Positions 21,235 through 59,530 of a stretch of 64,000 nt of DNA are shown here, in pieces. The first letter of the stretch is position 1. The number at the start of each line of letters is the position of its first letter. The notes beneath the pieces were generated by a model. It saw nothing but the letters and a program-made list of their open reading frames with translations. It was not told the DNA's origin and did no database searches. Source of the stretch: Rhodamnia argentea (lineage: Eukaryota; Streptophyta; Magnoliopsida; Myrtales; Myrtaceae); contig NC_063154.1 in assembly GCF_020921035.1 (NCBI RefSeq), positions 2,790,001 through 2,854,000 of the forward strand, in the 5' to 3' direction. The position numbers and the translations under genes were made by a program.

Positions 21235-24200
21235 TGGCCTCCATTAACGGACACTCAAAGCTCTTCGCAATCCATGCGGTACCCGAAATTAAAAATGAAG
21301 ACGAAAATTCGGAAATCACGAAGGGTTTTTTTTTTGGCTTTTTGTGTGGTCCAAGGAAATTCGGGGGGTCCGGGGAGTGGTTTCGTGGTTGTTTCAGTTT
21401 TTGGCCGCTTCGAGAGGTTAGGGATAAAATCGTACTTTCCTAATTGTGGGTCAAAAACAAAAGGGGGAAGAAAGCGGTTTTGATTATTGAGAATGTTCTT
21501 TTACGGAAAAGATGATTGGTCGACATAATTTTTCGAATTTGTTTTAGCTAATTAATCTTATTTTATTTTATTTAAAAAATTACAACTTATATTGCCATGA
21601 TTCAATTCGGATCCACATTATTGATTTCTCATTATCAGACCCAGTTAAAACTACGGAACTTAAGTTTAACTATTCAAAAAACTATATGTGAGCATCCACT
21701 CATAGCACAGGTATGATACTAATATTACTAAAAAATCTTGCTTTACAAATCATAGACATTCGGCAAAAGAGACGTTTCAAATATTTTTTCGGTTGTTTGC
21801 GGATCCCGACTGTTACCTTCATCTTAGAATACGTAGATTTCCTTAGCCGATGCCATAGTTTTAGGCATGATATTCAATCATTCCTTATGGATGGCAACTT
21901 CCATTATCAGTTTGTTGTTCTACGCTAATCATATTGTCAATTTTAATTCACATGGATGTTCTTGGATCAAGTAAGCTACACTTACAATTATGAAACCGAA
22001 AAGACTGTAAATACGCTCCCTCTTAGATAAGTTGGGATTTCAAATTGATTTGTTTTAAGATTTCTTGTTCAACATAGAATGGATGTTTTAAGTTGGGGCT
22101 CCCACACCCTTCTTCCCCCCCCCCAAGGCCCTTTGGGTTATTTTGTTTCTGAATAATTACATTTTAACCAGTGAAATGAAGTTACTTCATAATCCCACCC
22201 GAAAAAAAAAAAAAGGGAAGTAAGAACTACCATGGGAAAAGTGTCCAAACAAGGTCCAAAAAAAAATGTACAGAAAAGAAAAATAAGACAAAAAGAAAAA
22301 AACAAAAAATTCATTAGAATATTAAAAAAATATCCACGTCAATGACAACTTGCCATGTAGGACAATTAGTGTGCTCGCCAACGATTTCCGGCAAAAATTG
22401 ATCGCTTAGACTCAATTGGCACAAATACAAAATGTTTAGAATTAAATTGGCGGTAATAAAATGTTTATGATTGAATTGACATCAATGTCACCCAATGCTG
22501 ACGAGGGTCGCCAACCCTCTCTTGGGGGCTTGCGGGGGTAGGCCAGCGACCCTAGCAGGTCTTAAATTATTAAAAAAATCATAAAAGAAAGATAAAAAAA
22601 GGAACAAATAACAAATATATTAAAAAATATAAAAAAATATCCACATCAATTTCCGATGTACCAAGTGGGACAATCAACGTCCACGCCAGCTATTTTTGGT
22701 CAAATTGGCTGAATGGATTTAATTGGCACAAATACAAAAAAGTTTATGAATGAATTGGCACCAATAAAAAGTTGATTGAATTGGTATAAATATAATAGGT
22801 TTAATACTTTTTCGACACTTTTCCCGAACTACTGCTATACAGGACAATAAAATAGCAAACGACTCATATCCAAATGTATAGTCACAATATATTTCGAAAT
22901 ATAAGAACAAATCGAGTAAAGAGCGAGATGCAAAAAAAATTATTGAAGATTACACGCGATCTATTTGTTATTCAAATCCATATCGTGTGTGTATATATAT
23001 TCTGAATAATGGTGTTAGGTTAGGTGAAAAGAAGGAACAAACAAACAAAAAGGCAAATATGAAAGTGGGACAAGAAAATTAAAATCATGGAAAATCATCC
23101 AAGAAGCCATCCTTCATCCCCATTATAAATAAAAATCGGGGGGAAAGGACATTATAAAAGTTGCATTATACCTTACCAATAAATAAATAAATAAATAAAA
23201 GTTGCATTATATGATGGAGTAACATGCGACTTCGTACTAAGCTAGTACAAAATAGGAAACCGCACTTCACTCATACTCATCGACAGCTTGCCAAAATACC
23301 CACGCGACGGCAAGAGTGGAGCTACGTTCGTTGTGCCTATGAAGGTCCATCAGCGGGGAAAGCAACAAAAAAATGTCGTAAACTTATTACATTGATACTA
23401 ATTTAGTCTATTCGATCAATTTTGATAAAAACATCAGCGACATGAACTTTAGCCTTAGTTCAAGCGTTCTACGTGGCATGACCGACGTTGACATTGACAA
23501 ATTTACAATTTTTTATACTTTTTCTGATTTTTTTATTTTTTTATTGTAGCCAGCAATGGCTTGGGCGAGGGCCGCGACCCTCACCCGCCAGAATGAAAAA
23601 ATTGAAAGTAAAAACAAAAAACAAAATAAGAAAAAGGGCGGGGTTATTTCTACTCCATTTGGCTAAGCCACTACTTTTTTCAAACAACAGACCGAAACAC
23701 CTTTCTATCTCTTCAATTTATTATTTTTTTGATCAACCTAACTAACATAATTGTCTTTGTTTCTATTTCTCTTTAAGTTAGCAATTTCACATTATAAATA
23801 TCAAATTACACCGAATAAAATATCATCTTATCATGCATTATGTTATCACTTTGCTTAGATAAGGTCTTTATTTTTAATTACAAAAATTGTATAAAAGGTT
23901 AGATATTTCTAGTTATAATGGTTTATGAACACACAATTGACTGCTTATTTTTTATGAAATAATTTGAGAGAAACTTTATTTCAAAGTTGAAAATTAAAAT
24001 TCAATCTAATGATTTAGTAATTTTTGACCTTGTGGATGATTTTCTGTAATAAATTTATAGGTTTCTAAAGCTAAACATCGTTGATTTATGCATCCTTTTG
24101 AGCTTGGATGTGGTTGAAAATTTATTTACATATTTTGTACTTTCAATCTCGCACTAGATTTTTTTAGGGGAAAATTTTAAGCATATTTTGAAGTTTTGAT

Positions 24201-27078
24201 CCACTTGCTATAAGATTGAATTAATAATTGATATTAAGTACCTTCTTCATAGTGGGAGTTGAACAGCAAGAAGTTTTATGTTATTTCCTTTATGTGCCTA
24301 TCCTTTGTTAATATTTAGATATGATCTAAATAAAATAGTTTGACATTTGATCATGCTTTTAACATATTAACCTTTTCCAAATTTTGATCATTTTTTTTTA
24401 CAATTTTTTCATCATGATTGGCTAAATAATTAAATTGAATTTTAATTTTCGACTTTGAAATATAGTTTCACCCACATTATTAGAAAGAAAGGCAATTAAT
24501 TGTGCGTTCATAAGCTATCATAAATAGAAACTTCTTTGCAAATGAAAAAATGAGACCATGACTTAAAATTGACAACATTCTCTAGGTGGAATGATAATGA
24601 GATATGGTAAATTAATATATTGATGGGTGTAATGGAATAGTTATATTATGAAATTAATGAGAGAGATGATAGAAATAAAGACACTTTTGTAGATTAGCCT
24701 AATAAAAGAATAAACAATAAATTGGAGAGAGTGAGGAAGGTATTTCGGCAAGTTAACAAAAAAAAAAAAAAGAGTTGTATAATTTGTCCACACCAACGTC
24801 AATCGTGCAACGTAGGATGATCGGCGTCTATGTTAGCAATTTTTGGCCAAAATTGGCCATATGAACCCAATTGACACTTCGACAACAAAAAAAAAAAAAC
24901 TGAATTGGCACAAACATAGAATGTTTAGAACTAAATTGATCAAATTGAAAGATTTATAATTGAATTTGTGTCAATTTGATAGGTTTATGACTTTTTTAGT
25001 ATTTACCTCATCCATTGAATCATCTCGTACAACACGCAAGCAAGCTAAATCGAGAAATTGAAAAATGAAGGAGGATATTTCTTCTTTTGTCAAGCAACCT
25101 AACACAAAATTCTTTTATTTTTCAACCAAAATAAATAAAAAAACCCTAATAAAGTTATAAATTGTTTGACTTCGGATCTAAGTCGACTTTGATAATTCAT
25201 TAGGTTAAAACTTGACCATAGAAATTATAGATCAAGACCATCTTCTCATTATGAAGCATGCAAACCGAGACTCTAGAAGAAACAGGATGCTAACATATCT
25301 ACCTAGGGCCAACAATGCCATTGATGCTTATGTCGATAACTATTCTCCATGTACTTAATGTGCAATACATGCGAACTAGATGACCCGCGAATTGTTTGCG
25401 TCTAGGACACCATATGAGTCGGGTCACGACTCGCACGCAGAGTTTTGGCATGAGATGTTGCGGATCCCCAACCTATAATGCGGATTAAACCTACTGATTT
25501 CGCGACTTCGTTTGCTTTTCGAAGTAAAGTTTGGATTGACCCGAAATGACCGAGTTGAATGTTGCTCCTTTCTTTCGAAAGAAAAGAGCACGCAAGCACC
25601 TTGGATTCTAGAGAGGGAAACGCCCGCCACATAAAAGGCTCTTGATCTACGTCCGATTCTAGCGGCGGATCATTGACCACAAACAAAGAGAGGATCAGAT
25701 CTGGGGTCTGCAACGTGCCCACCTTCAGATTAATACCAAATTTGACTCTGATTTCTCCTTTCTTTCCTTGTTTTTCTGGTCATCTGCATGCGAACACGTG
25801 CCTTTTATTGGGGCTTCTCCCCTTTATCGGTAGAAAATAATATGTGGACAATGAAAATAATTTTAGGTATTATAGGTCGAAACCCAGCACAGGACCATGT
25901 TGAGATGGTCTTTGCTTAGAAGTTAGATGCTAGACAAGTATAAACATAGATCTGGACCTTCATGCGATTAACCTAACGCAAGAATGGCGTTGACTTTCTT
26001 TTGGTTGTCCCCCTTTGACCACGTAGCAAGTTATGGCTATGTTTGGTTAAGATCCTCCTTTCAAGGTTTTGGCCTGCTTAAGGTCAGAAATATTCTTGTA
26101 GTGCCAACGTATATTACCCAAATTCGTGGCCGGCCTGGTTTTTCTTTGTCGCCCCTTTCCCCTTTTTTGTTGCAAGGACTGCCATTTGCCACTCCTAAAT
26201 TTGTAAAGGTCGATGATAGTTCAATTTGGTTTGGGCCGAAGAAGCAACGTCACTCGATCATTATCAAACTAATTGAGTTTTCCGAGAAAAAAACCTACTA
26301 GTGGAGGAAGACCACGAAAGACATATATGTGGACGATCTCAAACCCTCTCAGCCCGCCGACTCGAATTCTTTTACGGTTAGGGTTTCCATTGAAATGGTT
26401 GATGTCGATTGTGCAAGTTTTGTGACTGTATTGCAATGGACCAAATCAGCAAAAGGGAGAAGGATGATGTATCTGCCGAGAGAAGCTTGGGAGGTCTCTC
26501 TTTCGTTGGCGTATCTTGAGGTGCAAAAAACCACACATGCTTTTCTGATGATGTGAGCCACACAATGACAACCTGGTGGGACGAGGACCGACATGGACCC
26601 TTAAAACCTCGATTAGGGGTAGTAATAATGGCATAGTTAAGGTGATCCCGGTCAGACAACTCTTGTTTCTTGGGCTGTCGGTGGGTTTAAAGACTAGTAT
26701 TCTAAATTACTCAAAAGGGCAAAATTTGCTACCTATAGTAATCACCCACTTCCCAAGTTACGTGTGTTTGGTTTCTTAGCTATTCAACACATATTGCTCG
26801 TAGACTTTTTCCGCGCCGCATGAGATCTTCGGCATTAGAATATCTTGAACCTTCATCTTGTAGAGTAATCAAAAGAGATGTCGGTATGGCAATAATTTAT
26901 ACTGTGATGCGATGACTGGTCAGTGAGAAAACTGATTAACAACACGTATGAATTGAGTGAAAAACCAAATTTATGTGGGATTGGTCTATGACCATGTAAT
27001 TGCCAATACAACCAGTATCAGAACGTGTGTAGGAGTAGAACCATTTCTTCCCTATTTTTCTCCTTCTCTCTGTATGTC
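21235..27078. other. AT-rich intergenic region with dispersed repeats
   Basis: No gene is recognised in about 5.8 kb. Copies of a degenerate dispersed repeat occur at about 22331-22500, 22631-22830 and 24781-24995. Each has a 'tatccacatcaat..catgtaggacaatcggcgt' start, a 'ttttggtcaaaattggc' middle, repeated 'aattggcacaaatac' phrases and a 'cgacacttttccc' end. GC-rich blocks near 22500-22560 and 23545-23600 resemble each other in opposite orientation. An AAAT microsatellite lies at 23178-23200. Open frames at 25402-25722 (-) and 26329-26556 (+) lack recognisable domains. Confidence 0.6.
22631..22830 (+). repeat. dispersed intergenic repeat family, representative copy
   Basis: The copy starts ATATCCACATCAATTTCC, contains GTGGGACAATCAACGTCCACG and several AATTGGCACAAATAC-like phrases, and ends TTTTCGACACTTTTCCC. 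Related copies sit at about 22331-22500, 24781-24995, 28005-28120, 29917-30110 and 30630-30745, with a weaker relative at 49270-49530. There is no coding capacity and no obvious terminal repeats or target duplications. Confidence 0.65.
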
Positions 27079-33600: not shown

Positions 33601-34519
33601 GCTGCAGAGCCAGATGGTGATTCGAACTAGGTTCTTTGCATGCATTACATGGAAGCTCCGGTGCTGGGACTGGTGGCCGGAGAAAACTCGTCGCTTCTCC
33701 TAGTTTAGGTCTCCCCTAAGGATCCGGACGCGCACACCACAAACCCGCCATCATCAAGCATCGCATTGGCTTCTAATCAAAACAAGAACCCACCATCATG
33801 AAGCCATCCCGTTTGCTTCTAATAAAAAACAAGACCCCAATGGCTCATCAGCTGCGTCAAGGATGCTATTTGACAGGTAAAGCAGCCGAACCCACTTAAA
33901 CTCGCGGAAACGGTATTCCACATCCTGATAAGTCCTTCCTTAACTTGTGGAAGATGGTTCTCCACATCCTGATAAGTCCTCCCGCAAGCAATCTCCATCA
34001 TCACAAGTTTGCAACCACGAAGCCAAACATGCTAGATTCTTTCGCAGCCTTCCCATCTTTCACGTATTCTACTGCCTGATAAACCATGTGTCATTTGAAC
34101 CCTCTGTCGGCAGTAGCCATTCCGAAATCACCGAGCTTTGGTCGTGAAATTTGTGTCCGATAGTACATGAGCTGATATTATGTCCCTGTGAAGTACACGT
34201 TGCTGTAAGTTTCATAAAAGTAATTAAGGGCCGACGCCACGCCTAGAGCTATCTTGTCCCGCACATCCCCAAAGGGATGATTTTCAAGTCTACCGTTGGG
34301 CATGCGAAAACTCGTGTTTCTCTTGACACCATCCAATAAATTGCACCAGGTTTCGATGCCTCATGAGGCTGATAATCCTTACTTCTTCGATGAACACCTT
34401 CTCGGAATGTCTGGATCTTGCGAAGATTCTCTTGACGGCCACTCTCACGATCTATGCGGCACAGCGTTCCTTTGTAACTTGGCCATATGCTACTCGGCTA
34501 AGACTCCGATCATTTTTGC

Positions 34520-34691
34520 TATAATATTTACTTCTTTGACTAGGTCAACCGGTGGTGGGACCCACCCTTGAAAAAAAGAATTGAAGGTTGAAAAGTCAAC
34601 AAAAGAAAATAAAAAAAAAGAAAAGAAAAAGAAAAAGGACCCACCCTAAAATAGGGGACCTTTATTTTTTAAACCGAGAGCACGCACGAAG

Positions 34692-34723
<32 letters not shown>

Positions 34724-35907
34724 AGAAAGGAAAGGGCTTTCTTGTGCGTCCACGTCACGTCACCTCGCCAAGTCGTCCTGACCCCGATTAGCAACACCTG
34801 GTAAGCAATCATAACGTTGTTGGCTGATGAGCTTTGTTGTGAAAATGTCATTTGTTTTAGCTTGCGAAATCAGTTTGTGATATACATATTCTGGATTAGT
34901 TTTGTGAATTATTGGGGATGATGGATTTATTTTCCTGATCACTTGAAATCCAGTGGAGAGTTATGAGTATGCATATTGTGCATGGACTAAGTGGTGCACA
35001 GTGATGCGAGCCACCTCTAGAGCCTTGTACTATTGATATGTGCTGTTCAAGGGCTAAGTGCTACACGATGACGTGAGTCTTGTGTGAACAACCTCTAGAG
35101 TCTTATACAATTGATATGTGTCGATCAAAGTCTAAGTGCAACATGATTATGTGAGTCTTGTGAAAGCCACCTTTAGAGCCTTGAGATGTGATGTGATGCG
35201 AGATTGGTCAATGGGATGGATCATTGGCATGTGATTTAAAGTCGTTGGAATGGACCATTGGTGTACGATTTTATGACATTAATCAATGCAATAAATCATT
35301 GACGTTTTGTTTTGACATTACTGATAGAACTGAATTTGTTGAAAAGATGGGATTTGTTTTTGACCTTGTACATATGCTGTGTTGAGAATTGCTAATATAC
35401 GTATACTTTTTTGGAAAGACACAGCCCGCTTTGGTATTGTATGTGCACAAACCGTGGTATTCGACAACGTGTATTGTAGTATTTTACTATTCATGTGACA
35501 ACGTAATTCATTGTTCATTATGATCGTATGCATACAAATATTTGCTGAAAGTAAATAACTTATATTTGAAGTTATACATTTATTATGAATCGAAATATTG
35601 ATTTTCGTTACGGTTTTGTAAATATACATAGTAGGTGCTCGATCCGCTTAAAAGAGATGTACTACTCGCTGAGCTGTGGTTGCTCACTCTATTCCTTCCA
35701 ATCTTTTTCAGGTTCTTCATTTAGTGACTAATAGAACGAGAGGGATATAGACGTGAACATTGGTAGTTGTTGTTTTAGTTGCTGTTTGGATATGAGTACA
35801 GTTGAGATAGTTGGATATATATACTTTAATATCAGGTTTGTATTTAAGACTGTATCCTTTGGGTGAAAGGACGGCCGTGTCATATTTGATGGTTTCAGGG
35901 TGTGACA
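34520..35907 (-). mobile_element. solo LTR or LTR-like element inside the LecRLK pseudogene
   Basis: The element is flanked by TTTGC at 34515-34519 and 35908-35912. On the complement it starts TGTCACACCC, a beginning common among plant LTR retrotransposons, and ends ...TATTATA, so the terminal CA is not canonical. Length is 1388 bp and no gag or pol is seen. Removing it brings together the two halves of the kinase coding homology (a GFAN-type segment and the downstream glycine-loop region). It contains an A/G-rich tract (34570-34740) and short tandem repeats (34987-35190). Confidence 0.75.
34987..35190 (+). repeat. three ~70 bp tandem units within the LTR-like element
   Basis: Units start at CTAAGTG near 34987, 35054 and 35132. 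Each carries a GATG/TTATGTGAGTC-like phrase, CCACCTCTAGAGCCTT and ATTGATATGTG. A second, shorter duplication follows (GGGATGGATCATTGG / GGAATGGACCATTGG, about 35213-35270). Confidence 0.8.
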
Positions 35908-36830
35908 TTTGCAAAGCCATCAGTAAGCTGCAACCCACTCTTGACAAGACAACTTCATTTGAAAACGCTGCTTTTGCTCGAGAATCATATATTTTCCTCT
36001 TCTCCACGAGCAACCCCGGTCGCAACTGGTGATAGCAAGAGACATGCTGTGAGATCTGTCACAAAGTATGGTCAACCAGCGAATCATGCAGTTTGATTGA
36101 GAGAGGGTTGTGTTAGCTGATTGCCGACATGCAACATCCAAGTTTGAAGTGAATTCCCACGAATTGATACCGTATGTTTGCTCATGGATGTCATAAGAAG
36201 CTGAAGACCCAATTACGATCGATTCGCGGAAGTGCTTCATGAGATCAGTGAGGCAGGAAAGGGAAAAGTTGGTTTTACAGTCGAGCAAAGCTGTGTTGTC
36301 ATTGAATGACCAAAAGGTGCTGAGGCTCTTGGTAGTGGAATTGTAGGTCACCAAGCTATATAATTCAAGATCCCAACTGCCATCTACCAGCGAGGAAAGT
36401 GAGTTGCTGATGCCAATGTGCCAACGTTCGGGTACAAATGCTTGACTTCCCCATCTCCAAGCACGTCAAACTCCACAACTGCAATTTGGTTCTTTGTGCC
36501 ATCATCCATCATGGCCTCGTTGACCAATTCTAACTAGGCACGACCAAAGTCGGGTGGGATTGCAAAGCCAACCGGAGCGAGGAAAGATGCCAAGCCTTCG
36601 CCAATTTCCATGGGACTAAATCTTTCCGCAAAAGAGAATCGGGTCAAGAAATCCACTTCCCTTTCTATAGAAGAATCCCTTATATTCAATCCTGGCGTGC
36701 CCGCCAAAGAGTTCGTCTTGGACATTGCCATCGAAGCTAGGTATATTGAACGGAAGAGGTCTAACAATAAGAAACCAAGGGAGATCAGAACCCGAAGATC
36801 CCGTTCTATACATCGTTTTACTTAGCTTGT

Positions 36831-38319
36831 AATTGCTGTATGGACAAAGTTTGCAGCTTGAACTGTTTCATTGGCAGAATTACACCTTGCTTCAGATTTT
36901 GAAAAGATCATTGCCATTGTCATAGTTGGTAGGTGCATATAAATGATGCAGAGCATCATTTGAGATTCATCTTCTTGAAATATAGCACATTAAATGCTTG
37001 GACTCGTATAAAGAAATTCGACTAGACCAAGTACGTATAAGAGCTGAATCTCAAATAATGCTCTGCATCATTTACATGCACCTACCAACTATGACAATGG
37101 CAATGATCTTTTCAAAAGATCATTGCCATTGTCATAGTTGGTAGGTCTGAAAAGATCATTACCATTGTCATAGTTGGTAGGTGCATGTAAATGATGCAGA
37201 GCATCATTTGAGATTCAGCTCCCATACGTACTTGGTCTAGTCGAATTTCTTTATACGAGTCCAAGCATTTAATGTGCTATATTTCAAGAAGATGTTTTAT
37301 TATGAAGACATAAGGACGATCAACATGATCTGTAACTTAAGAAGCTATATGGCCTATGTAACATTTTGGCTGGTCTCCTTCCCAACCTTTCGTCTTGATG
37401 TCCAACGCCCTCATTGTCTCTAGGCTTTATGAAGGAGGGGCAGTAGTCAAGCAACCTTCGCTGGTGACTGAGTTGGTTGACGGTGACGGGGCACCGACTG
37501 GCAAGCTATCAATGAGATGTAACAGGGACCGACGATGGCGACGCTTATTTAGCTCTATGATTCCAACCGATAGCATTTATATCGCTACATCTTAAGTCGT
37601 GTAGCCATCATCAATTGATTTCCAATCTCAGAGTACTGATGAATAGAAAAGAAAGACACTTATATCCCCCCAGTTCGTCCACGAAAATGTTTGGACATAA
37701 ATTATCGTTAATAATGAAAAATTCTTTATTAATTAATTATTTGAAGCGATATACGCGATTATTTTTTTTAAAATATTATTCAAATCATTCTTTCCCGTGA
37801 AGCAAACGGAGTCTCAAAGATCATTAGACCGAGTCACTTTATTTAGGAAACCGATTTTTAGAAAGTTATTACACCAAAGAATTGGCATTTTGACCGTACA
37901 GCTTATACGTGCCTTTTGGGTTGTGCCTTTTGAGGTCTTTCCAATAAATTCTTATTGCAAGGACCAAAGAAACGGCATTCTAACCATTCAAGTGACGTGG
38001 TCCGCTCTGTATTGCTGAAATTTCCTACGTGTCCTTATTTTTTTGAATAAACAATCCGAAGTGTCTCGTTAGAGATGTCAATACTCGAGATAGAAATCCA
38101 TAGAGCTGTTGGGAATGTGTGCACGCAGTCCACTCCAACATTTCCAGGAGAGGAGTACCACCACGCGGAGGAGAAAAGCCCAGAAGCAGAAGCCGTTGAA
38201 CGAGTCAAAAGTTGGTTCCAGGAATTTGTGGTTCATTAAAAGGCACGCTCATCTCAAGCCAGTTGCATGGCACGATCCTCATCTTTAACAGTTGCAGAAT
38301 ACGCTTATTCACCACAACC
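36831..38319. promoter_or_regulatory. divergent spacer and upstream region of LecRLK1
   Basis: This region between the minus-strand pseudogene and LecRLK1 recurs, with changes, at 45200-46261, 50790-51270, 53890-54535 and 61693-62329. Conserved landmarks include GCATTTAATGTGCTATATTTC, CTATCAATGAGA, GCCATCATCAATTGAT, GGACATAAATT and, nearest the gene, CCAGTTGAATGGTGCAAA-like and CACAACCATG blocks. The last block contains the start codon. No clear TATA box was identified. Confidence 0.7.
36898..37293. repeat. ~145 bp inverted repeat with 33 bp loop in the LecRLK spacer
   Basis: 36970-37114 is the reverse complement of 37148-37293 with only a few mismatches. The spacer 37115-37147 and the stretch 36898-36969 are further direct copies of the start of the right arm. 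Transcription would give a long hairpin. The matching spacers at about 45275-45425 and 50857-51005 have a single, non-inverted copy. Confidence 0.9.
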
Positions 38320-40284
38320 ATGTCTTGTTCTCTTCCTCTGTTCACTCTCTTCATCCTCTTCTCCCTCGTTTGCTGTCCTGTTATCCCCTTTGTCAGTTCT
38401 GTTTCCTTCAATGTAAGCAGCTTCGGCACGAATCTAAGCGACATACATTACCAAGGAGTTGCAAAGATTGTGTCTGGATCCGTTGTTCTCACGGAAGGCT
38501 TCTATCCCATCTGTCAAGGAGGCCTGGTGCAGTATTCCAAGCCCGTTGATATATGGGATCCTGTTACGAGGAAACAGGCAGATTTCTCTACTCGTTTCTC
38601 TTTCACCTGTGATGTTTTCAACTCCACTCAATATAGTGATGGCGTGGCCTTCTTTCTTGCTCCTGTTGGCTTCGTAATCCCCCCTAAATCGGCTGGTAGA
38701 TACATAGGACTCTTCAATGGGAGCACGTATGATTCTGGGCCCCAGAACCAAATTGTGGCCGTCGAGTTCGATAGTTATGTGAACCCAGAATTTGATCCTG
38801 CGACGCAACACGTAGGAATCGACAGAAACTCGCTCTCATCACTCGTTACTGCCCGTTGGGATGCCGTCTCACACAACGCTAGTGTTACTCATGTTTTGGT
38901 GACCTATAATTCCACTAGCCAGAATCTTACTGTGTCCTGGTCGTTTGATGGTGAGCCAGTTTCTCTGCATAAGCAAGAGTCATCGCTTTCTTGCGCGATT
39001 AATCTTGCCCAAGTTCTTCCTTCATCAGTAGCAATTGGAATCTCAGCTGCAACAGGCCTATATCCAACGAGACACAGCATCAACTCATGGGAATTTACTT
39101 CAAACTTGGACGTCGTGCATCCCCCATCGTTGCATACATCAAGAAAGGAGGTAAACTCTAAGATGTATAAGATGATAACATTCATCACTGTTCCCATAGC
39201 ATGTCTCTTGCTGGTTATTTCAGCAGGGTCTTGCTTATTCGTGATCAAGAAGAGGAAAAAATACGAGTTTCGACCTCTGACTGGCATGGACAAAGAGATA
39301 GTACCATTGCCGGTGAAATTCTCTTATCAAGAGTTGCTTGTTGCTACAAATGGCTTCGCAAGTGATCGACGACTAGGCCAAGGAGGGTCCAGCCAAGTTT
39401 ATAAAGGATTTTTGAACCGTTTAGACCGCCTAGTCGCCGTCAAAAGAATCTTTGCAAAATCCAAACATTCAGAGGAGGTCTTCACCAACGAAGTCAAGAT
39501 ACTAAGCCGCATGATACACCGAAATCTGGTGCAATTCATTGGATGGTGCCGAGAGGAAGGCGAGTTTTTGCTTGTTTATGAATATATGCCTAATGGTAGC
39601 CTCGACAATCATCTCTTTGGAACTCGAAAAAGTCTTCCATGGGATGTGAGGTACAAGATCGCTTCAGGGCTTGCGCTAGCCCTCAACTATCTTCATGAAG
39701 ATCTAGAGCAGTGTGTTCTCCATAGAGATATAAAAGCAGCAAACATATTACTCGACACGAACTTCAACACTAAGCTCGGAGACTTTGGAGTGGCTAAGCT
39801 TGTTGACCCCCGGTTCAGGACACAAACGACGGACGTGGTAGGGACGTATGGTTACCTGGCGCCAGAATACTTGAGTGATGGTAAGGTTACTAAAGAATCC
39901 GACATGTTCAGCTTCGGGGTCGTGGCTCTAGAAATCGCATGCGGAAGGAGGACCTTTCGGGAAGGAGAATTTTACGTTTCGCTACGCAAGTGGGTTTGGC
40001 AGCTTTACCTTGCTGGAAACATGCTTGAAGCAGCGGACGAGACATTGGGTTCGAGTTTCGACAGAAAGGAAATGGAATGCTTGATGATGCTGGGACTGTG
40101 GTGCGTCCATCCAGACCCGAAGAGAAGACCGAAAGCAGGAAAAGTTATCAGATATCTTCAGCAAGAAGCCTCAGTGCCCGATCTTCCACCTGGCACATTC
40201 GAGCCTCCCACTTCATATCAGCCATCAGCAAAAGGAGCAGTATCGTCTTCTACTGAAGAATTCAGTTCCTTTTCAGCAAGATAG
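38320..40284 (+). CDS. L-type lectin receptor-like kinase 1, single exon, 654 aa
   Basis: A plasma-membrane receptor kinase: extracellular legume-lectin domain and cytoplasmic Ser/Thr kinase, a family acting in pathogen sensing, extracellular ATP sensing and development. The signal peptide is residues 1-27. The lectin domain (about 28-266) keeps DGVAFFLAP, the metal-site pattern VEFDSYVNPEFDP..HVGI, and NSWEFTSNLDV. The transmembrane segment is about 284-309. The kinase (about 345-620) has LGQGGSSQV at 352-360, Lys375, Glu391, HRD 468-470, DFG 488-490 and APE 515-517, so it is an RD kinase with all catalytic residues. The third glycine of the loop is Ser. The ATG at 38320 opens the signal peptide and matches the sister genes; an in-frame ATG at 38212 would put 36 residues before it and is unlikely. 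Confidence 0.95.
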   Translation: MSCSLPLFTLFILFSLVCCPVIPFVSSVSFNVSSFGTNLSDIHYQGVAKIVSGSVVLTEGFYPICQGGLVQYSKPVDIWDPVTRKQADFSTRFSFTCDVFNSTQYSDGVAFFLAPVGFVIPPKSAGRYIGLFNGSTYDSGPQNQIVAVEFDSYVNPEFDPATQHVGIDRNSLSSLVTARWDAVSHNASVTHVLVTYNSTSQNLTVSWSFDGEPVSLHKQESSLSCAINLAQVLPSSVAIGISAATGLYPTRHSINSWEFTSNLDVVHPPSLHTSRKEVNSKMYKMITFITVPIACLLLVISAGSCLFVIKKRKKYEFRPLTGMDKEIVPLPVKFSYQELLVATNGFASDRRLGQGGSSQVYKGFLNRLDRLVAVKRIFAKSKHSEEVFTNEVKILSRMIHRNLVQFIGWCREEGEFLLVYEYMPNGSLDNHLFGTRKSLPWDVRYKIASGLALALNYLHEDLEQCVLHRDIKAANILLDTNFNTKLGDFGVAKLVDPRFRTQTTDVVGTYGYLAPEYLSDGKVTKESDMFSFGVVALEIACGRRTFREGEFYVSLRKWVWQLYLAGNMLEAADETLGSSFDRKEMECLMMLGLWCVHPDPKRRPKAGKVIRYLQQEASVPDLPPGTFEPPTSYQPSAKGAVSSSTEEFSSFSAR

Positions 40285-40889: not shown

Positions 40890-41100
40890 AATTCTTGCGA
40901 GCAAAACTTGTATAATTCTTCGAGTGAGATTTCATTAGAAATTGTGTGGGGCTAAATATTGAGTGAGTTATTGAGTATAATTAGAGGCTAGAAAATATCG
41001 AGAGTGTGTTTGAGTGTTCGAGTGATTGTAACCTCATTGTATCGCTTGTTCCTACAGTGGGATTCATTCATACTCTCTCTGTGGACGTAGGTTCCCAAAT
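40890..41100 (+). repeat. inverted fragment of the copia LTR family
   Basis: This stretch is similar to the reverse complement of part of the LTR at 41112-41896. Phrases such as GTGTTTGAGTGTTCGAGTGA, TGTATCGCTTGTTCC and GTGGACGTAGGTTCCC appear here in the opposite orientation. The two lie head to head, separated by about 11 bp. Confidence 0.75.
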
Positions 41101-41111
41101 TTGGATCGAAT

Positions 41112-41896
41112 TGTTGCGCGAAAGCTAGCGATCGAACATAAATAGACAGCACGAGAAAATAAATCGGACATTAAATGTACGTGGTTCGGTAGTAAAGACC
41201 TACGTCCACGGGGAGAGCAGGAACGAATTTCACTATACATCAAGCGATACACGGAGGTTACAAACCACACTCGAGTCACTCAAACACTCTCAGCATTTCT
41301 CAAATCTCAATCACATCCAATAATGCACACAGAGTTTTAGCTCATAATTTCTCGCGAAATAATCTCTCAATCTTACAAAGAAATTACACAAATCTAATCT
41401 CAAGATTTAATTAGCTGGAATACTGAAGTTATTGACGCAATTCCACGAGGACGTCCACTGCCAAGCACTCGTAGAAACGGCGCTTCAGAACTAATATCTA
41501 CGTATTCATCAACAACGGCATCCTCCAAGCACTCACGTGAAGTGGTGCTGCAATTTCTTCGTTAAAAGCATCCCTTGACACATGAGCAAATATATATATC
41601 CTGGACTTCTTGGATGACGTCGACCTGAAGCCTACTAAAATTCGGTCATCAATCCATGTAGAGAAAACTCCGAATCTTTTATGCCCTTTCGTTATTTCTC
41701 TGACCCATTGTTTTTGACCAAGTCCAAGTCCAACTCACCAAAAGGAGTAACCGAACCGAATTCTGCCCTTGCTCAATTTCGGACGTGCGCAGGATATCTG
41801 AATATCTATCTTTCTTTTAATTTTACGAACGAGATATACTTATTTTTTAAATTTAGATTTTTGCTTCGAGCTCAAACTCGAGACACATTTTCAACA
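41112..41896 (-). mobile_element. solo copia LTR
   Basis: This 785 bp stretch begins TGTTGCGCG and ends TTTTCAACA. It is related along its length to the 5' LTR of the minus-strand copia element (60971-61692); shared phrases include GTACGTGGTTCGG, TCGAGTCACTCAAACACT and AATAATCTCTCAATCTTA. No internal region accompanies it and no target duplication is evident, so it may have rearranged since insertion. Confidence 0.75.
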
Positions 41897-42600
41897 CCAA
41901 CCATGTAACTCCGGTGTCCGATTTGGTTTCCTTTTTTCCGACTATTTTACCGATTCGCTTGCCCCTTTATTCACAACACCTTCAATACAAGTAGATTTGA
42001 TGTGAATCTGACCAACTCACTATATGAAGGAGTCGTAACAACTGTGTCTGGATCCGTCATTCTTACCGAACGCCTCACTCCGTCAAACTTTCGAGTAGGC
42101 CACATCCAGCATACCAAATCCATTGCTTTTTTTTTTCTTGCTCCCGTTGGCTTCTCAATCCTACCCAACTCGGCTGGTGGATAACTAGGATTCTTTAAAG
42201 TGAGCACGGTTGACGATGGATCACGGAACCAAATCGTGCTTGTCGAGCTCAACTTAACTCAGAATTTGACCCTTTAAATAGTAACTCGGTCGAGCCACTT
42301 GTTTCCGCTCGTTGGGAAGTTGGATCTCCCAACGGAGGTGTTGCTAATGTTATGGTGACCTATAATTCTTCTGGCATGAGTCTTCGTGTGTTCTGGCTGT
42401 TTGGTAGTGAGCCGGTTTCTCCGGAAAAGCAAAAATCCTCGCTTTCTTGCCAGATTGATCTTGCTAAAGTTTCTCCCGAATCTGTAGCAACTGGAGCCTC
42501 AGCTTGTTATGGCCAATTGGGGAGAGACACAGCATCAATTCATGGGAGTTTGCTTCAAACTTGGACGTTGTGCCTCTCAGATATATAGGTTGGTAGCACT

Positions 42601-44786: not shown

Positions 44787-44989
44787 TTCTCGAATATTAA
44801 ATTTCCACACAATGGAATCATGTTAGACTTATGAGATTTTGTGAGACCACCGCCAACTTTTCTTAATTTCCATAAACGATTCATGTTAAACTTATGAGAT
44901 TCCGTGGGACCACTACTCTATCATTTTCTCTCGTGCTTAGTCCGGTCTTTTGTCTAGCACTAGGCGTGGACATACTTAATTGGGGAGGC

Positions 44990-45200
44990 AAATGGAGCCT
45001 GCAAAAGAGAATCAGGTTGAGAAATCCGCTTCCCTTCCTATAGAAGAATCCCAAATATTGGATCCTAGCATGCCCTCCAAAGAGTTCATCCTGGACATTG
45101 CCATCGAAGCTAGGTATATTGAACGGAAGAGGTCTAACAATAAGAAACCAATGGAGACCAGAGCCCGAAGATCCCGTTCTGCACATCATTTTACTTCGCT
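44990..45200 (-). pseudogene. LecRLK N-terminal fragment (unit 2)
   Basis: On the complement this matches 36830-36620 nearly base for base, with PFNIPSFDGNVQDELFGGHA and then a frameshift. Only the first part of the lectin domain remains. Homology stops near 44990, next to non-homologous DNA. It is the unit 2 counterpart of the minus-strand pseudogene at 33600-36830. Confidence 0.85.
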
Positions 45201-46261
45201 TGTAATTGCCGTCTGAACAAAATTTGCAGCTTGAACTGTTCCATTGGCAGAATTACACCTTGCTTCAGATTTTGAAAAGATCATTACCATTGTCATAGCC
45301 GCTAGGTGTACATAAATGATTAAGAGCATCATTTGAGATTCAGCTCCTATACGTGCTCGGTCTAGTCGAATTTCTTTATACGAGTCCAAGCATTTAATGT
45401 GCTATATTTCAAGAAGATGTTTTATTACGAAGACATAAGGACGAACGACATGATCCGTAACTTAAAGAAGCTATATGGCCTACATAAAATTTCGGCTGGT
45501 CTCCTTCACAACTCTGCGTCTTGATGTCCACCATTGTCATAGTCTCTAGGCTTTATGAAGGAGAGGCAGTAGTCAAGGAACCTTCGCGGGTGACTAGGGA
45601 TCGGTCAATTGTGACAGAGTTGATTGACGGTGATGGGGCACCGACCGGCAATCTATCAATGAGACGTAACGGGGCCCGATGATGACGGCGCTTATTTAGC
45701 TCTATGATTTTGACTGATAGCATTCCTATCTCTAAGTCTCAAGTTGTATAGCCATCATCAATTGATTTCCAATCTCAGAGTACTCATGAATAGAATAGAA
45801 GACACTTATATCCCCCAGTTCATCCACGAAAATGTTTGAGGCAATATAAGCGATTATTTTTTTTTTAAATATTCCTCAAATTATTCTTTCTTGCGAAACA
45901 AATGGAGTCTCAAAGACTATTAGACCGAGTCACTTTCTTTAATAAAGCAATTCGTGGAAAGTTATGACACCGAAGAAACGGCATTTTGACCATATATAGC
46001 TTATACGTGCCTTTTGGGTTGTGCCTTTTGAGGTCTTTCCAAGAAATTTGTTAATGCCAGGACCAACACTTAGATCTATTTAAATAAAGGGAGGAACAAT
46101 GTCGGTAGCAGTACCATAAATTTGTTGGGACGCTCAATTTAGCATCATAGCTCTACTTTTAGGAATGTTTGGTTCATCCAAAAGCACACAATCTCGAACC
46201 AGTTTGAATGGTGCAAAACTCGTCTTTTAACAGGTAGCAGAAAGCAGTTCTCACCACGAAC
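45201..46261. promoter_or_regulatory. divergent spacer and upstream region of LecRLK2
   Basis: This is homologous to 36831-38319 but lacks the inverted repeat, keeping a single copy of that sequence at about 45275-45425. It ends in the conserved ACCAGTTTGAATGGTGCAAA block and the CACGAACATG start region. Confidence 0.7.
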
Positions 46262-48304: not shown

Positions 48305-49110
48305 GACCTACTCTTGTTTAGAAAGAATGTCTCTTGTCCAATGACTTTAGCAGAAACTGCAAAGGAGCGGTTGATCATACGTTTCGCCGTGTCTAAATCT
48401 TCCGCAAAAGCATACCTCATCTGTACAGTTGTAGAATATAATTATGACCATAACTGTGTCTTGTTATCTTTCATTTTGTGCTCGCACCATCTTTTACTGC
48501 GTCATCTCGTCTGCTGTCCTGCTATTCCGCTTATCAGTTCTCTTTCCTTCAATACAAGTAGCTTTCCCTTTTTTTCTTTTCTTGCTCCCGTTGGCTTCTC
48601 AATCCTGCCCAACTCGGCTGGTGGATAACTAGGATTCCTCAACGTGAGCACGGTTGATGACGGGCCACAGAACCAAATCAGGGTTGTCGAGCTCGACTTA
48701 ACTAAGAATTGACCCTCAAATGCAGCACGTAGGAATCAACAGTAACTCCCTCGAGCCACTTGTTTACGCTCGTTGGGATGTTGGATCACCCAACGGCGGT
48801 GCTACTAATGTCATGGTGACCTATAATTCTACGAGCAAGAAATATTCGTGTGTTCAGGTCGTTTTGTTCATGGGAGAGTTTGCTTCAAACTTGGACGTTG
48901 TCCCTCTCAGATATTTAGGTTGATAGCACTTATTACTGTTCCACTTCCTGTAGCACATCTCTTTGCTGGTGGCTTCAGCAGGGTCTTATTCATGATCAAG
49001 ATGAATGGAAAAAAAAAAAAAAAATTATGAGTTTCGTGCTCAGACTGACATTAACAAAGAGATAGGAGCATTGCCGCTGAAACCCTCTTTGCCAAAAGTT
49101 GCCTGCTGCT
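48305..49110 (+). pseudogene. L-type lectin pseudogene (unit 2)
   Basis: 48310-48460 matches the LecRLK upstream block (CCTTGTCCA-like, ACTTTAGCAGAAACTGCAAA). The signal-peptide region follows, then LSFNTSSF jumps by deletion to SFLAPVGFSILPNSAGG and TAA. Beyond lie MQHVGINSNSLEPLVYARWD, VMVTYNSTSKK, EFASNLDVV in a shifted frame and a decayed juxtamembrane stretch (about 48920-49100). No kinase domain remains. Shared stop and shared surrounding changes tie it to the pseudogene at 40360-42600. Confidence 0.88.
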
Positions 49111-50180: not shown

Positions 50181-50800
50181 CTTCTTTTGCTCCTAGAATT
50201 ATACATTTTCCTCTTCTCTGTGAGCAAACCCGGTCGCAACCATTGATAGCGAGAAACGTGCTGCCAGATCTGTCACAAAGTGTGGGCAATCAGTGAATCT
50301 TGCAGTTTGATCGAGAGAGGGTTGCATTAGCCGATTGCCGACGTGCAACATCCAAGTTTGAAGCGAATTCCCACGGGTTGATGCTGTGTATTTGCTGATG
50401 GATGTCAACCGGAGTGACGAAAAATGCCAATCCATCGCCAATCTTCGTGGGACTTTATCTTTTGATGGCGAAAGAGAATCAGGTCGAGAAATCCACTTCC
50501 CTTCCTATAGAAGAATCCCCACATACACACAGGTTTGGAACACTGGAGGCGTTCTCCGCTGCTAGTCATGTGACCGTCAGTTACAGAGAGATCGACTGAT
50601 GCTCTCTATTGGATCCTGGCATGGCCTCCAAAGAGTTTGTCCTTGACATTGCCATTGAAGCGAGGTATACTGACGTGAAGAGGTCTAACGATAAGGCAGT
50701 GGCAAAGAATGGGAAAAAAAAAGAATGGCGACCAGAACCTGAAGATCCCTTACTGTACATCGCTTTACTTGGCTTGCACCTGTGCTGTTAGGACAAAGTT
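50180..50800 (-). pseudogene. LecRLK lectin-domain pseudogene (unit 3)
   Basis: On the complement, 50790-50600 corresponds to the lectin N terminus (GNVKDKLFGGHA-like), 50500-50400 to the TRFSF and LAFF..PV regions, and 50390-50200 to the end of the lectin domain and juxtamembrane region, with frameshifts. The middle of the lectin domain and the whole kinase are missing. An insert around 50515-50610 is not shared with the other copies. Confidence 0.82.
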
Positions 50801-51200
50801 TGCAGCTTGAAGTGAACTGTTTCATTGGAAAATTGCACCTTGCTTCAGATTTTGAAAAGCCCATTACCATTGTCATAGCCGGTAAATACATACAAATGAT
50901 GAAGAGCGTCATTTGAGATTCAGCTCCTATACGTACTCGGTCTAGTAGAATTTCTTCATACGAGTCCAAGGATATAATGTAATATTTTTCAAGATGATGT
51001 TTTATTATGAAGACATAAGGACGAAGAACATGATCTATAACTTAAGAAGAAGTATGTCCTATATCTCATTTTGGCCGGTCTCCTTCCCAACTTTACGTTC
51101 TTGAAGTCCATACTCATTGTCTACAGGGTTTATGAAAGAGGAGCAGTAGTCAAGGAACCTTCGTGGTGTCTTGGGATCGGTCAACTGTGACTGAGATTGA

Positions 51201-52091
51201 TTGATGGTGATGGGGCACCGAGCGGCAGAGGCAGCCGGCAAACTATCAACGAGACGTAAACAGGGATCGATGATGGCGGTGATCCACCGAAATCTGGCGC
51301 AATTCATTGGATGGTGCCAAGAGGAAGATGAATATTTGCTTGTTTATGAATACCTGCCTAATGGTAGCCTTGATAATCATCTCTTTGGATCTAGGAAAAG
51401 TCTGCCGTGGGATGTGATGTACAAGATAGCTCTAGGCCTGGCGTTAGCCCTTAATTATCTTCGTGAAGAAGCAGAGCAATGCGTTCTTCACAGAGAGATA
51501 AAAGCTGCCAACATATTACTCGATACAAGCTTCAGCACCAAGCTCGACGACTTTGGAGTGGCCAAGCTCGCTGACCCCCAGTTCAGGACTCAAATGACGG
51601 ATGTGGTAGGGACATGCGGCTATCTGGCACCGGAATATGTGACTGAAGGGAAGGCTACTAAAGAGCCTGACATGTTCAGCTTCGGGGTTGTGGCTCTAGA
51701 AATCGCATGTGGTAGGAGGACCTACCAGGAAGGTGAATATCAAGTCCCACTATACAAGTGGCTTTGGCAGCTTTACCAAACTGGAAACATGCTTGAAGCA
51801 GCCGAGGAGACTTTGAATTCAAGTTTTGATAGGAAGGAAATGGAATGCTTGATGATGCTGGGACTTTGGTGTGAGCATCCAGATCCTAAGAGAAGGCCGA
51901 AAGCAGGACAAGTTATCAGATTTCTTCAGCTAGAAGCCTTGGTACCCGAGTTTCCATTTGACACCTACAAGGTTCCCTTTTTATATCAGCGATCAGCACC
52001 TAGAATAGAGTCTTCCTCTTCTATTCAAGAATCGCCTCCCGTTAAGCAAGACATATCATTGCTCCAAAAGCCATGCAGCAACACATGTTGA
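51201..52091 (+). CDS. truncated LecRLK3: kinase-only open frame, likely pseudogene
   Basis: This 296-codon frame starts in spacer-derived sequence and enters the kinase at HRNLAQFIGWC. The signal peptide, lectin domain, transmembrane segment, glycine loop, ATP-binding Lys and helix-C Glu are all missing. The rest is continuous to a normal C terminus. The catalytic loop reads HREIKAAN, so the catalytic Asp is Glu; DFG and APE remain. The junction near 51272-51282 joins spacer DNA homologous to about 45650-45700 with kinase DNA homologous to about 47460, implying a ~1.75 kb internal deletion. Activity as a kinase is very unlikely. It might be expressed from the spacer promoter as a soluble fragment, but nothing shows this. 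Confidence 0.8.
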   Translation: MMVMGHRAAEAAGKLSTRRKQGSMMAVIHRNLAQFIGWCQEEDEYLLVYEYLPNGSLDNHLFGSRKSLPWDVMYKIALGLALALNYLREEAEQCVLHREIKAANILLDTSFSTKLDDFGVAKLADPQFRTQMTDVVGTCGYLAPEYVTEGKATKEPDMFSFGVVALEIACGRRTYQEGEYQVPLYKWLWQLYQTGNMLEAAEETLNSSFDRKEMECLMMLGLWCEHPDPKRRPKAGQVIRFLQLEALVPEFPFDTYKVPFLYQRSAPRIESSSSIQESPPVKQDISLLQKPCSNTC

Positions 52092-53889: not shown

Positions 53890-54660
53890 ATCATCCAAGA
53901 AATATTTGGACATAAATTGTTATTAATAATGAAAGTATTTTTCATAAACTAATTATTTGAAGCTATACGAGTGATCATATTCTAGAAAATGTTTTCCAGA
54001 TCATCTATTTCTTGCGAAACAAACAAACGGAGTCTCAATGATCACCGGTAAACACTAGCAGTAAAAGAGGATTATCTCAATGTTTACGGAGATCAATTTT
54101 TATTGTCAAAATATTTTTTAAATCATTTATTTCTCGCAAAACAAACGGAAGCTCAAAGGCTATTACACCGAATCACGTTATTCAGTAAATTGATTTGACA
54201 AACACTAGCAGTGAAAGAGGAATAACTCAATCTTCTGGAAGTCCAAACAAGATGGCGTGTGAAAATATGGACTTTCTGTAACAGCACTTTGACCATATTG
54301 CTTATCCTTGCTTTTTGGGTTGAGCCCAACTGACCAAGTTGAATTTGTTTAGTAAATGTCCCTTGTCCAGCAACTTTAGAAGAAGCTGCAAAGAAGCTGT
54401 CGACCTGGCGTGTTCGACGGTGTCGAAATCTGCATTTAGCAATGTCTGGTTCATCCTAAAGCACACTGTCTCAAACCATTTGAATGGTGCAAACCTCATA
54501 TTTAACAGTTGCAGAATACACTTCTCATCACAACCATGTCTTGTTCTCTTTCTTTGTGCACTCTCTTAATCCTTATCTCCCTCGTCTGCAGTCCTGCTGT
54601 CCCATTTGTCAGTTCTCTTTCCTTCAATATAAGTAGCTTCGACTTGCATGGAGGCGACAT

Positions 54661-54998
54661 TGTTGATGCATCAAGGCTGCACGATCTATTTTCTGTGAGT
54701 CAGTTTGTTAGAGTCCTATTTTGTAGGGGTGTTTAGTTGCATGTTATCTATTCTGTTAGTTTGTTACGGATTTATTCTGTTAGTTTGTTACTGACTTTTG
54801 TGGATCAAGCAATCTGTTACTTTGTAGGTAACGTGTGTTTAGTGGGCGACAAAAAAAAAAAAATTAGTCTGTATTTAATTATTTTTTTTTCAGTTTTTTG
54901 AATAAGAAGAGAAGCAGTTTTCCTTTCCATACGTTTTGCTTGCTGCAAACACACAACTTTTGCTGTCAATTCTTCTTTTGTTCTTTGAGAAAACAACA
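54661..54998 (+). repeat. 5' LTR of copia element
   Basis: TGTTGATGCATCAAGG...AAACAACA, 338 bp, abutting the GACAT target copy on the left and the primer-binding site on the right. Confidence 0.93.
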
Positions 54999-57900
54999 AG
55001 TGGTATCGAGCCTTCTTGATCTTAAGGGGCTGTGAGTGACTTGTGAGATTGATTGAGAGGAGTGTCTGCATCCATAGAAGACGAAGGCAAGATGGAGGCA
55101 GGATCGAGTGTTTTTTCAATGGCTTCACCGGTGTTTGATGGAGAAAATTATCAAGCCTGGGCAGTGAGAATGCGAGCCTATCTAGAGGGTTGTGATTTTT
55201 GGGAAGTTGTGGAACAAGATTATGAAGTTACTCCCCTTCCTAACAATCCAACCATTAATCGGATCAAGTTTCACAAGGAGAGGATGACAAGGAAGGCAAA
55301 GGCAAAGTCTTGTTTATATCTTTCTGTCTCACCTGCTATTTTCAGCAGAATTATTGCTTGTGAATCAGCCAAAGCTATCTAGGACTTCCTCAAAGCCGAG
55401 TATCAAGGAGATGAGAGGATCAGAAGCATGAAGGGGCTAAATCTGATCACGGAATTCGAGAGACTGCAGATGAAGGAGTCTGAGACAATTAAGGAGTATT
55501 CTGATAAGTTGATAAGCATTGCAAATCAGGCAAGAGTTCTAGGCACCGACCTCTCTGATAATAGGCTAGTGCAGAAAATTCTTGTCTCTTTGCCCGAAAG
55601 GTTTGAGGCAACCATTGCCTCTTTGGAGAACACCAAGGATTTGTCTCGGATCAAGTTGGCGGGATTGCTTAGTGCTCTGCAAGCACAAGAGCAGAGGAGG
55701 TTAATGAGGTTGGAAGGAAGTACGGAAGGAGCTTTGCAGGCCAAAGAACAACAGAATGTAGGAGGGAAAGGCAAGAAGTGGAAAGGGAAGAAATGGAATG
55801 ACAGTAGCGGTTCAGAAGCTGCCGCAAGAGAGAACGGTGCGAGCAACTCCAAGAACAATTGGGGAAGGTATTCCTCATGTCGGCATTGTCGAAAACAGAA
55901 TCATCCGCACTTTAGATGTTGGAAGAGGCCGGATGTAAAGTGCAGAAATGTCACAAGCTTGGACACATTGAGAAGTTCCGCAAAGAGAAGGGAGATCAAC
56001 AGCAAGGTGAGGCACATGCTGCAGCCCAGCAAGAGGTAGATCAACTGTTCGTTGCCTCTTGTTTCTCTTCTAGTACTCCATGTGAAAGTTGGCTTGTTGA
56101 TAGTGGTTGCACAAATCACAAGACAAGTGATGAAAAATTATTTATAGACCTTGACAAGTCGTTGAAGTCAAGAGTGAGGGTTGGGAATGGGGAGTATTTA
56201 GAAGTGAAAGGTAAAGGGACCGTAGCTATAGAGAGTTGTGCTGGAACTAAACCGGTTTCTAATGTGATGTATGTGCCCGAGATTGATCGAATTTCTTTGA
56301 GTGTGGGACAGTTGGTAGAAAAGGGATTTAAGGTGGTATTTGAAGAGGGGAAGTGTTTAATCTTTGACTCCAGTGGTCGGGAGTTGTTCAAGATAAAGAT
56401 GCAATAGAATAGTTTTTCTCCGAATCCTCTCGAGAAAGAACAGGTAACATTCAAGTGCCGGGCCGGTGCTTCGTAGATATGGCACAAGAGGTCGGGGCAC
56501 TTTCATCACAAAGGCGTATTGTTCATGTAGAGGAGTGAAATGGCAACCGGGTTACCAAGCTTGGAGGAGCAAATCACAAAGTGCAAGGCTTGTTTGCTGG
56601 GCAAACAGACAAGACTTTCCTTCAAGGAATCCACTTGGAGAGCTACGGAGAAGCTGCAGGTGATTCATACAGATCTATGTGGTCCACAAGTGACTCCTTC
56701 ACTAAATGGAATAGGTATTTCATTATTTTTATTGATGATTATACCAGAATGTGCTGGATTTACTTCATGAAGCAAAAGTCGGAAGTTACTGAGATATTTT
56801 TGAAGTTTAAAAGATGGGTTGAGAACCAAAGTGGCTGCAAGATTCGGGTCATCAGATTTGATAATGGAACAGAATACACCCCGTAGAGATTTAACTCTTT
56901 ACGTGAAGAGGCTAGAATTGAGCATCGGCTTACCACTCCTTACTCTCCACAACAAAATAGAGTAAGTGAGAGGAAGAATAGAACCATTCTGGAGATGACT
57001 AGGTGCCTATCGCATAAGAAGAATCTGGCAAAAGAATTTTGGGCATAAGCGACAAACACAACTGTTTTTCTGCTGAATAGGCTTCCTACAAGGGTGTTGG
57101 AGAAGAAAACTCCCTTTGAAGGTTGGTTTGGTGTCAAGCCAATTCTAAGAAATTTGAAGGTGTTTGGTTGTCTGTGTTTTTCTCATATTCCACGAGTCAA
57201 GAGAAACAAGCTAGGGGAGAAAGTTGAACCCGAAATCTTTGTTGGCTACAGTTTAGTGTCAAAAGCCTACAGGATCTATCAACCACAAACATGGAAGGTG
57301 ATCACTAGCGGGGATGTTCGGTTCTTGGAAGATGAGCAATGGGACCGGACAGATGAGTCACAAGGCAAGCACAATGAGGTCTTACTTGAAACCGACGAGC
57401 TGGTAGATGATGTTCAAGTTAGAGGTACCAGATCTCCGATCGATATATATCAGAGGTGTAGTGTGGCTGTTTTGGAACCTACTGGTTATGAGGAAGCTAA
57501 AAGTGATCAGAAGTGGATGAATGCAATGAAGGAAGAGTTGGCCATGATAGAAAAGAACCGGACATGGGAGCTAGTGGAGAGGCCTGAAGACGGGAAGGTG
57601 ATTGGAGTAAAATGAGTTTTCGGGACCAAACTCAATCCCGATGGCTCGGTGAATAAGCATAAGGCCAGGTTGGTGGTGAAGGGATATGCACAGGTTTAGG
57701 GAGTTGATTTCTCGGAAACCTTTGCTCCCGTTGCAAGATTGGATACAATTAGAATGACTCTTGCTTTGGTAGCTCAACAAGGATGGAAGGTGTATTAGTT
57801 AGATGTGAAATCTGCTTTTTTGAATGGAGTGTTGCGGGAGGAGATTTATGTTGAGCAGCCAAAAGGTTTTGTCACACCAGGCCAGGAGGAGAAAGTTTAT

Positions 57901-59366: not shown

Positions 59367-59530
59367 GACATACCGCATGAAGGATATGCGCGAACTGCGT
59401 CTGGATCCGTCGATCTAACCGATAGCCCACCTCAACTATATCGAGTGGGCCACATTTGGTATTCCAAACCCGTCAATATATGGGATTACATTACGGGGAG
59501 ACAAGCAGACTTCTCTACTCTTCCTCGAAG

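Follow-up and report, generated by a model that had tools for sequence, protein, structure and literature searches.

Template switching that produces the stem of a hairpin in a single step has been described, and the cases presented are from mammalian miRNA loci and rRNA genes (PMC8794818). In those cases, a neighbouring sequence is copied as its reverse complement in one event, and a related sequence lacking the hairpin can be set beside it. The hairpin that we report here shares both of these properties, but it lies in a plant spacer, has a 147-bp arm, and includes extra direct pieces as well as a snap-back. Stem-loop synthesis by Pol theta starts from two terminal base pairs, and the inverted insertions reported for it in mammalian cells are 3-30 bp long (PMC11292364). 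Our structure resembles these insertions in its snap-back with few terminal base pairs, followed by a short loop and a rejoining, whereas its inverted copy, at ~147-150 bp, is well outside the size range given there.

The possible consequences of such a structure are illustrated by inverted repeats of Arabidopsis. According to a MITE review (PMC12595863), 634 of 885 inverted repeats have a gene no further than 3 kb away and approximately 486 of these 634 make 24-nt siRNAs, while ~68% of the inverted repeats are likely transposon-derived. The hairpin described here likewise lies within 3 kb of a gene, but is derived from spacer DNA. Silencing in trans has been documented for natural inverted repeats such as VIM4-VIM2 of Arabidopsis Cvi (PMC13213937), and our locus similarly places an inverted repeat among the members of a gene family, whose homologous paralogues could serve as targets. 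The VIM repeat, however, is made of two genes with coding exons, its read-through transcripts have been demonstrated, and its siRNAs have been measured. Young MIRNA genes, in turn, are thought to go through a long-foldback stage (PMC1790633; PMC3237417). Our literature search found no publication joining a plant lectin receptor, an inverted duplication and siRNA.

Genomic context of the hairpin

The window analyzed is a 64,000-nucleotide stretch of Rhodamnia argentea DNA, whose gene content is plant-like: legume-lectin receptor kinases (LecRLKs), pieces of Copia-type retroelements, a GDP-mannose pyrophosphorylase-like frame and eIF3g. The hairpin lies between two lectin-kinase sequences:

38320-40284, plus strand: LecRLK1, an open reading frame of 654 aa for a legume-lectin receptor kinase (Pfam Lectin_legB and Pkinase), downstream of the hairpin
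33623-36689, minus strand: a broken, antisense lectin-kinase remnant, located by tblastn of LecRLK1 and LecRLK2 in three minus-strand frames

The end of the hairpin is 1,026 bp upstream of the LecRLK1 ATG (38320). On the other side, the lectin-like start of the remnant can be followed by eye to ~36750 in one minus-strand frame, and the structure starts ~0.2 kb from the remnant, within its 5' flank. Because this broken antisense copy adjoins on the left, the spacer holding the hairpin is the common 5' flank of a divergent pair, one member of which is broken. Pieces of the same antisense remnant were also found by tblastn at 44979-45059 and 50194-50517.

LecRLK1 and its spacer (unit 1) have sister units in the window. 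The LecRLK2 frame of unit 2 is open, and its coding sequence differs from that of LecRLK1 at 205 of 1962 sites (10.4%); the gene of unit 3 is a kinase fragment only. A further LecRLK at 62369-64000 encodes a protein 77-78% identical to both LecRLK1 and LecRLK2 and runs past the window end. Between the longer copies lie LecRLK gene fragments, lectin or kinase, at 41918-42572, 48491-49082, 51279-52004, 54536-54664 and 59286-59519, a scatter pointing to probable repeated duplication and decay in the cluster. Copia-type retrotransposon pieces are present at 390-1139 (gag-pre-integrase, together with an integrase match below the cutoff) and at 55428-58560 (copia gag and reverse transcriptase).

Anatomy of the hairpin

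A native spacer unit of ~150 bp occurs four times in the structure, complete or in part (+, -, +, +), and we refer to these occurrences as copies A to D. These copies, the resulting net insertion, and the corresponding sequences of the sister units are as follows:

36897-36969, plus strand: copy A, the left-hand portion of the native unit, which continues the left flank colinearly and matches copy D with 2 mismatches up to 36969
36968-37117, minus strand: copy B, the whole unit reversed, forming the left arm (arm proper 36968-37114), with 143/147 positions complementary to copy D
37114-37146, plus strand: copy C, a 33-base forward piece from the unit start, forming the hairpin loop and a tandem of 36-bp period with copy D
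37148-37294, plus strand: copy D, the whole unit, forming the right arm and colinear with the right flank
36970-37217, no strand: the net insertion (248 bp), as judged against the unit 2 spacer, in which 45342 and 45343 are adjacent and correspond to 36969 and 37218
45270-45419, plus strand: sister copy of unit 2, single and uninverted, within the window the sole site of perfect 21-24-mer matches to the structure
50850-50999, plus strand: sister copy of unit 3, single and uninverted, more diverged (14-16% from the arms)

These assignments are based on BLAST alignments of unit 1 with unit 2. The left flank together with copy A (36628-36969) matches 45001-45342 at 90%, copy B matches 45419-45270 on the minus strand at 91%, and copy D together with the right flank (37148-37693) matches 45273-45838 at 86%. 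The position of the 248-bp insertion can slide across a 70-bp duplication (2 mismatches), and no sequence has been lost at the insertion site relative to the unit 2 spacer. For the fourth unit (near 62.3 kb), a BLAST search with 36800-37399 detected no copy of the hairpin unit in the spacer.

The first-pass annotation had proposed two near-perfect arms of ~145 bp around a 33-bp loop, and these are real, with arms 1-2 bases longer than first given; the single, uninverted copies that it placed in the sister spacers are likewise present. It had further described extra direct copies flanking the arms. The one on the left (36897-36969) stands, whereas the other, the 33-nt partial copy at 37114-37146, forms the loop rather than a flank.

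The anatomy also bears on whether a MITE or a foldback transposon was inserted into the unit 1 spacer. At about 330 bp, with long inverted arms and close to genes, the structure does look like such an element, but the arms here are native spacer sequence that occurs once in each sister spacer, and neighbouring sequence plus one base accounts for the inserted 248 bp. The junctions show no short target-site duplication, the 70-bp partial copy being the only repeat. A MITE origin, which we consider extremely improbable, was rejected on this anatomy as seen within the window.

Hairpin geometry and significance

The arms, at 36968-37114 and 37148-37294, are 147 nt each, 97% complementary and separated by 33 nt. 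When paired base by base, 143 of the 147 positions match, and the four that differ (37039, 37040, 37057 and 37101, versus their partners) are all transitions. The hairpin is far beyond chance. Its self-comparison on the minus strand scores 404 bits. Dinucleotide-shuffled versions of the 64-kb window (two sets of 20, 40 in all) gave no inverted match with ends less than 2 kb apart above 37.9 bits in the first set or 36.3 bits in the second, and the longest one in the second set, whatever its score, measured 53 nt. Folding of the RNA of 36890-37300 gave z = -29 relative to 100 shuffles. An ungapped search of the window for inverted pairs of at least 40 nt within 1 kb returned four pairs, two of which belong to the hairpin structure, while the others are 84% and 80% complementary.

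Two weaker inverted repeats were noted elsewhere. An older-looking, AT-rich one at 23675-24765 has 69-nt core arms (23949-24017 and 24422-24490) at 84%, which widen to ~343-nt arms at 69% with gaps, and is possibly a decayed transposon. Another, at 40960-41331 downstream of LecRLK1, has ~133-nt arms at 74%.

Inverted duplications can come from chimeric reads, and an assembly or sequencing artefact was considered. Folding of a read, however, would be expected to give identical arms and one junction, whereas the arms here carry four transitions and the structure has three different junctions with partial copies. In addition, the whole structure is shorter than 400 bp and fits inside one long read. 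We consider an artefact very unlikely.

Junctions and proposed origin

The three junctions between the copies were placed at base resolution:

36968-36969, no strand: junction 1, CA, a 2-bp microhomology at the first strand switch
37109-37117, no strand: junction 2, the snap-back point TTTTCAAAA, with a 4-bp overlap AAAA at 37114-37117, turning on the native TTTTGAAAA
37147, no strand: junction 3, a single additional C separating copies C and D, without microhomology

The identity of copies A and D reaches 36969 and stops there, and the complementarity of copies B and D reaches 36968 and stops there, so that the first switch used a 2-bp CA overlap. Since copy B runs to 37117 and copy C begins at 37114, the second switch was made with an overlap of 4 bp. 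At this second junction, 33-nt arms are perfectly complementary around the single base 37113, which constitutes a 1-nt turn. The quasi-palindrome TTTTGAAAA is found in both sister spacers and is therefore older than the event, and we infer that it would have been the seed of the snap-back. At the third junction, base 37147 fits neither the continuation of copy C nor the native base preceding copy D.

The structure very probably arose by fold-back template switching, which duplicated a short stretch of native spacer DNA in inverted orientation. An inverted copy of adjacent native sequence is present, the unduplicated state is preserved in both sister spacers, and the switch points carry the CA overlap, the AAAA overlap with its 1-nt turn, and the 1-nt insertion. 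The proposed course of events is as follows. A growing strand arriving from the left would get to 36969, where CA would let it switch onto the complementary strand at the unit's right end, after which the whole unit would be copied backwards to give copy B. The strand would then snap back on itself at the native quasi-palindrome and copy 33 bases forwards, giving copy C, before resuming on its original template, at the unit's left end and with a single added base, to give copy D. This last join may belong to the same event or, alternatively, to a later 36-bp tandem duplication.

The footprint itself can be read directly from the bases, while we infer the direction of synthesis, the polymerase and the setting, which may be a replication fork or a break repair of the Pol theta type. 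Between these settings we lean towards replication-based switching, which fits the length better because the cited inverted insertions of Pol theta are far shorter than the 147-bp arm.

Age of the event

To place the event relative to the duplication of the units, the divergence of the arms was compared with that of the flanks. Between arms B and D, 4 of 147 sites (2.7%) are different, whereas the unit 1 and unit 2 flanks have differences at 26 of 269 (9.7%) and 46 of 397 (11.6%) ungapped sites. The first-pass annotation had taken the hairpin for a local rearrangement that followed the duplication of the units; this is supported, as the single-copy state is common to both sister spacers and the arms are younger than the split of units 1 and 2.

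By parsimony with the sister sequences, five changes have occurred since the event over the 400 copied bases. Set against the per-lineage divergence of units 1 and 2, these changes make the event appear, very roughly, about a quarter as old as the split of those units, with a range of roughly 8-55% given only five changes. Two of the five, at 37161 in copy D and at 36939 in copy A, revert to the sister base. They run counter to a simple origin, in that the sister base is carried in one unit 1 copy only, and to explain this pattern one needs reversion at both sites, gene conversion, or a partial template from a second haplotype, any of which is possible.

Potential silencing targets

The 21-mers of the structure were compared with the rest of the window, using 36897-37294 for perfect matches and 36968-37294 for mismatched ones. 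Perfect matches outside the structure occur at 52 positions, all of them in the unit 2 spacer and 41 in a single stretch, 45359-45419. In the unit 3 spacer there are no perfect 21-mers; allowing up to one mismatch gives 17 positions, and allowing up to two gives 69. No 21-mer matches any LecRLK coding region of the window, or the 62-kb unit, with up to three mismatches; at that threshold, the only further site in the window outside both sister units is the single position 45530.

The first-pass annotation had suggested that small RNAs from the hairpin would match the spacers of all LecRLK units. These results contradict that suggestion, since perfect matches are confined to the unit 2 spacer, with none in unit 3 and, even at three mismatches, none in the 62-kb unit. 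Judged by these matches, the LecRLK2 spacer would be the only strong (perfect-match) target in trans within the window. LecRLK mRNA itself is not predicted to be cleaved, except where it includes spacer sequence, because no coding region has a 21-mer match at three mismatches.

If a transcript over 36968-37294 were diced, its siRNAs might silence or tune the LecRLK paralogues, as the first-pass annotation inferred; silencing in trans is documented for VIM4-VIM2. The hairpin is long and stable, and its 52 perfect positions lie in a spacer copy ending 843 bp upstream of the ATG of the open LecRLK2 frame. The distribution of matches described above argues against such a role, as does the contrast with the VIM repeat in its coding exons and demonstrated read-through. 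We regard a locus of this kind, and with it any measurable silencing of the LecRLK paralogues, as improbable.

A role in cis appears likelier. If a transcript crosses the structure, it would form a dsRNA of ~147 bp that could be diced into siRNAs, and these would direct methylation of the spacer in cis. As a long near-perfect foldback within 3 kb of a gene (1,026 bp from the LecRLK1 ATG), the hairpin resembles the Arabidopsis repeats that produce siRNAs, although transposon-derived repeats may be more prone to silencing than a spacer scar, which weakens the Arabidopsis base rate here. By this analogy, an siRNA or methylation focus in cis is a substantial possibility that falls slightly short of an even chance. 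Beyond this focus and the silencing of paralogues, a neutral scar takes, in our judgement, most of the remaining probability.

Comparison with miRNA genes and signs of function

The hairpin could also be read as an incipient MIRNA gene of the inverted-duplication type, at the stage of a long perfect stem. The early stage described in PMC1790633 is similar, as large near-perfect foldbacks may first yield mixed siRNAs, and most of the miRNA genes of rice and Arabidopsis related to TEs or pseudogenes are attributed to inverted duplication (PMC3237417). A search of Rfam at E-values up to 1 returned 19 matches to 14 families (11 miRNA, 3 bacterial sRNA), with miRNA-family E-values down to 8e-11 for MIR2606, the best match. 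None of the 19, however, reaches its curated gathering score, MIR2606 scoring 70.6 bits where 139.7 are required, although a young gene need not match. Five of the 14 families (MIR2606, mir-4504, mir-5727, mir-3660 and mir-998), the best three included, match the two strands with similar strength, and the alignments to MIR2606 and mir-4504 depend largely on base pairing, which any long hairpin would supply. Assignment to a known miRNA or other RNA family was thus rejected. The arms, moreover, copy spacer rather than known transcript sequence, and the LecRLK coding regions of the window offer no target at up to three mismatches per 21-mer.

Selection for pairing was considered for the minus-strand RNA, in which each of the four arm mismatches turns into a G-U pair, leaving the stem unbroken and giving -263.8 kcal/mol, compared to -253.7 kcal/mol on the plus strand. 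In the hairpin-free flanks, polarised by unit 3 and with both branches pooled, there are 15 G>A/T>C changes versus 4 C>T/A>G. By branch, this control is small and not clean (12 versus 2 in unit 2; 3 versus 2 in unit 1). The G-U pattern is indistinguishable from this background, and selected pairing is neither supported nor fully excluded by it. Weighing these points together, we consider a MIRNA gene in formation highly improbable. The strand-asymmetric transitions of the unit 2 branch, seen when 36777-36896 and 37295-37466 are compared with their sister stretches, are an observation in their own right, based on small numbers.

A trace of methylation was likewise sought in the later changes. 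Four of the five are of the C-to-T type in CHH context and all five are transitions, but this signature of methylation decay is not significant, because the flanks are also rich in transitions (49, versus 23 transversions) and there are only five changes. Both arms carry the same three CpGs. Two further CpGs common to both sisters (unit offsets 27 and 85) are absent from both arms, and since they are missing from both, their loss probably predates the event.

Discussion

The hairpin upstream of LecRLK1 belongs to a known class, that of template-switch inverted duplications, while the silencing role that its matches would allow is narrower than first proposed. Its most likely present role is none, or a local siRNA/methylation focus in cis. 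Taken jointly, an origin by fold-back template switching and the lack of any role beyond at most such a focus appear likely to us.

Since the single-copy sister spacers display the state before the event, the history of the hairpin is legible base by base, including the short quasi-palindrome where the strand turned. The locus cleanly illustrates that gene clusters can acquire long hairpins, from which siRNA and miRNA loci are built, with no transposon involved. A bolder reading, in which siRNAs of the hairpin methylate both its own spacer and that of LecRLK2 following an essentially one-step accident of replication or repair, is unlikely; if true, it would represent the dated, base-resolved birth of a regulatory small-RNA locus from the promoter-side DNA of a duplicated gene family, rather than from a transposon or coding sequence. 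Should siRNAs be found, one mutation would be tied to the birth of a silencing locus beside receptor genes; otherwise, the structure would be an instructive scar.
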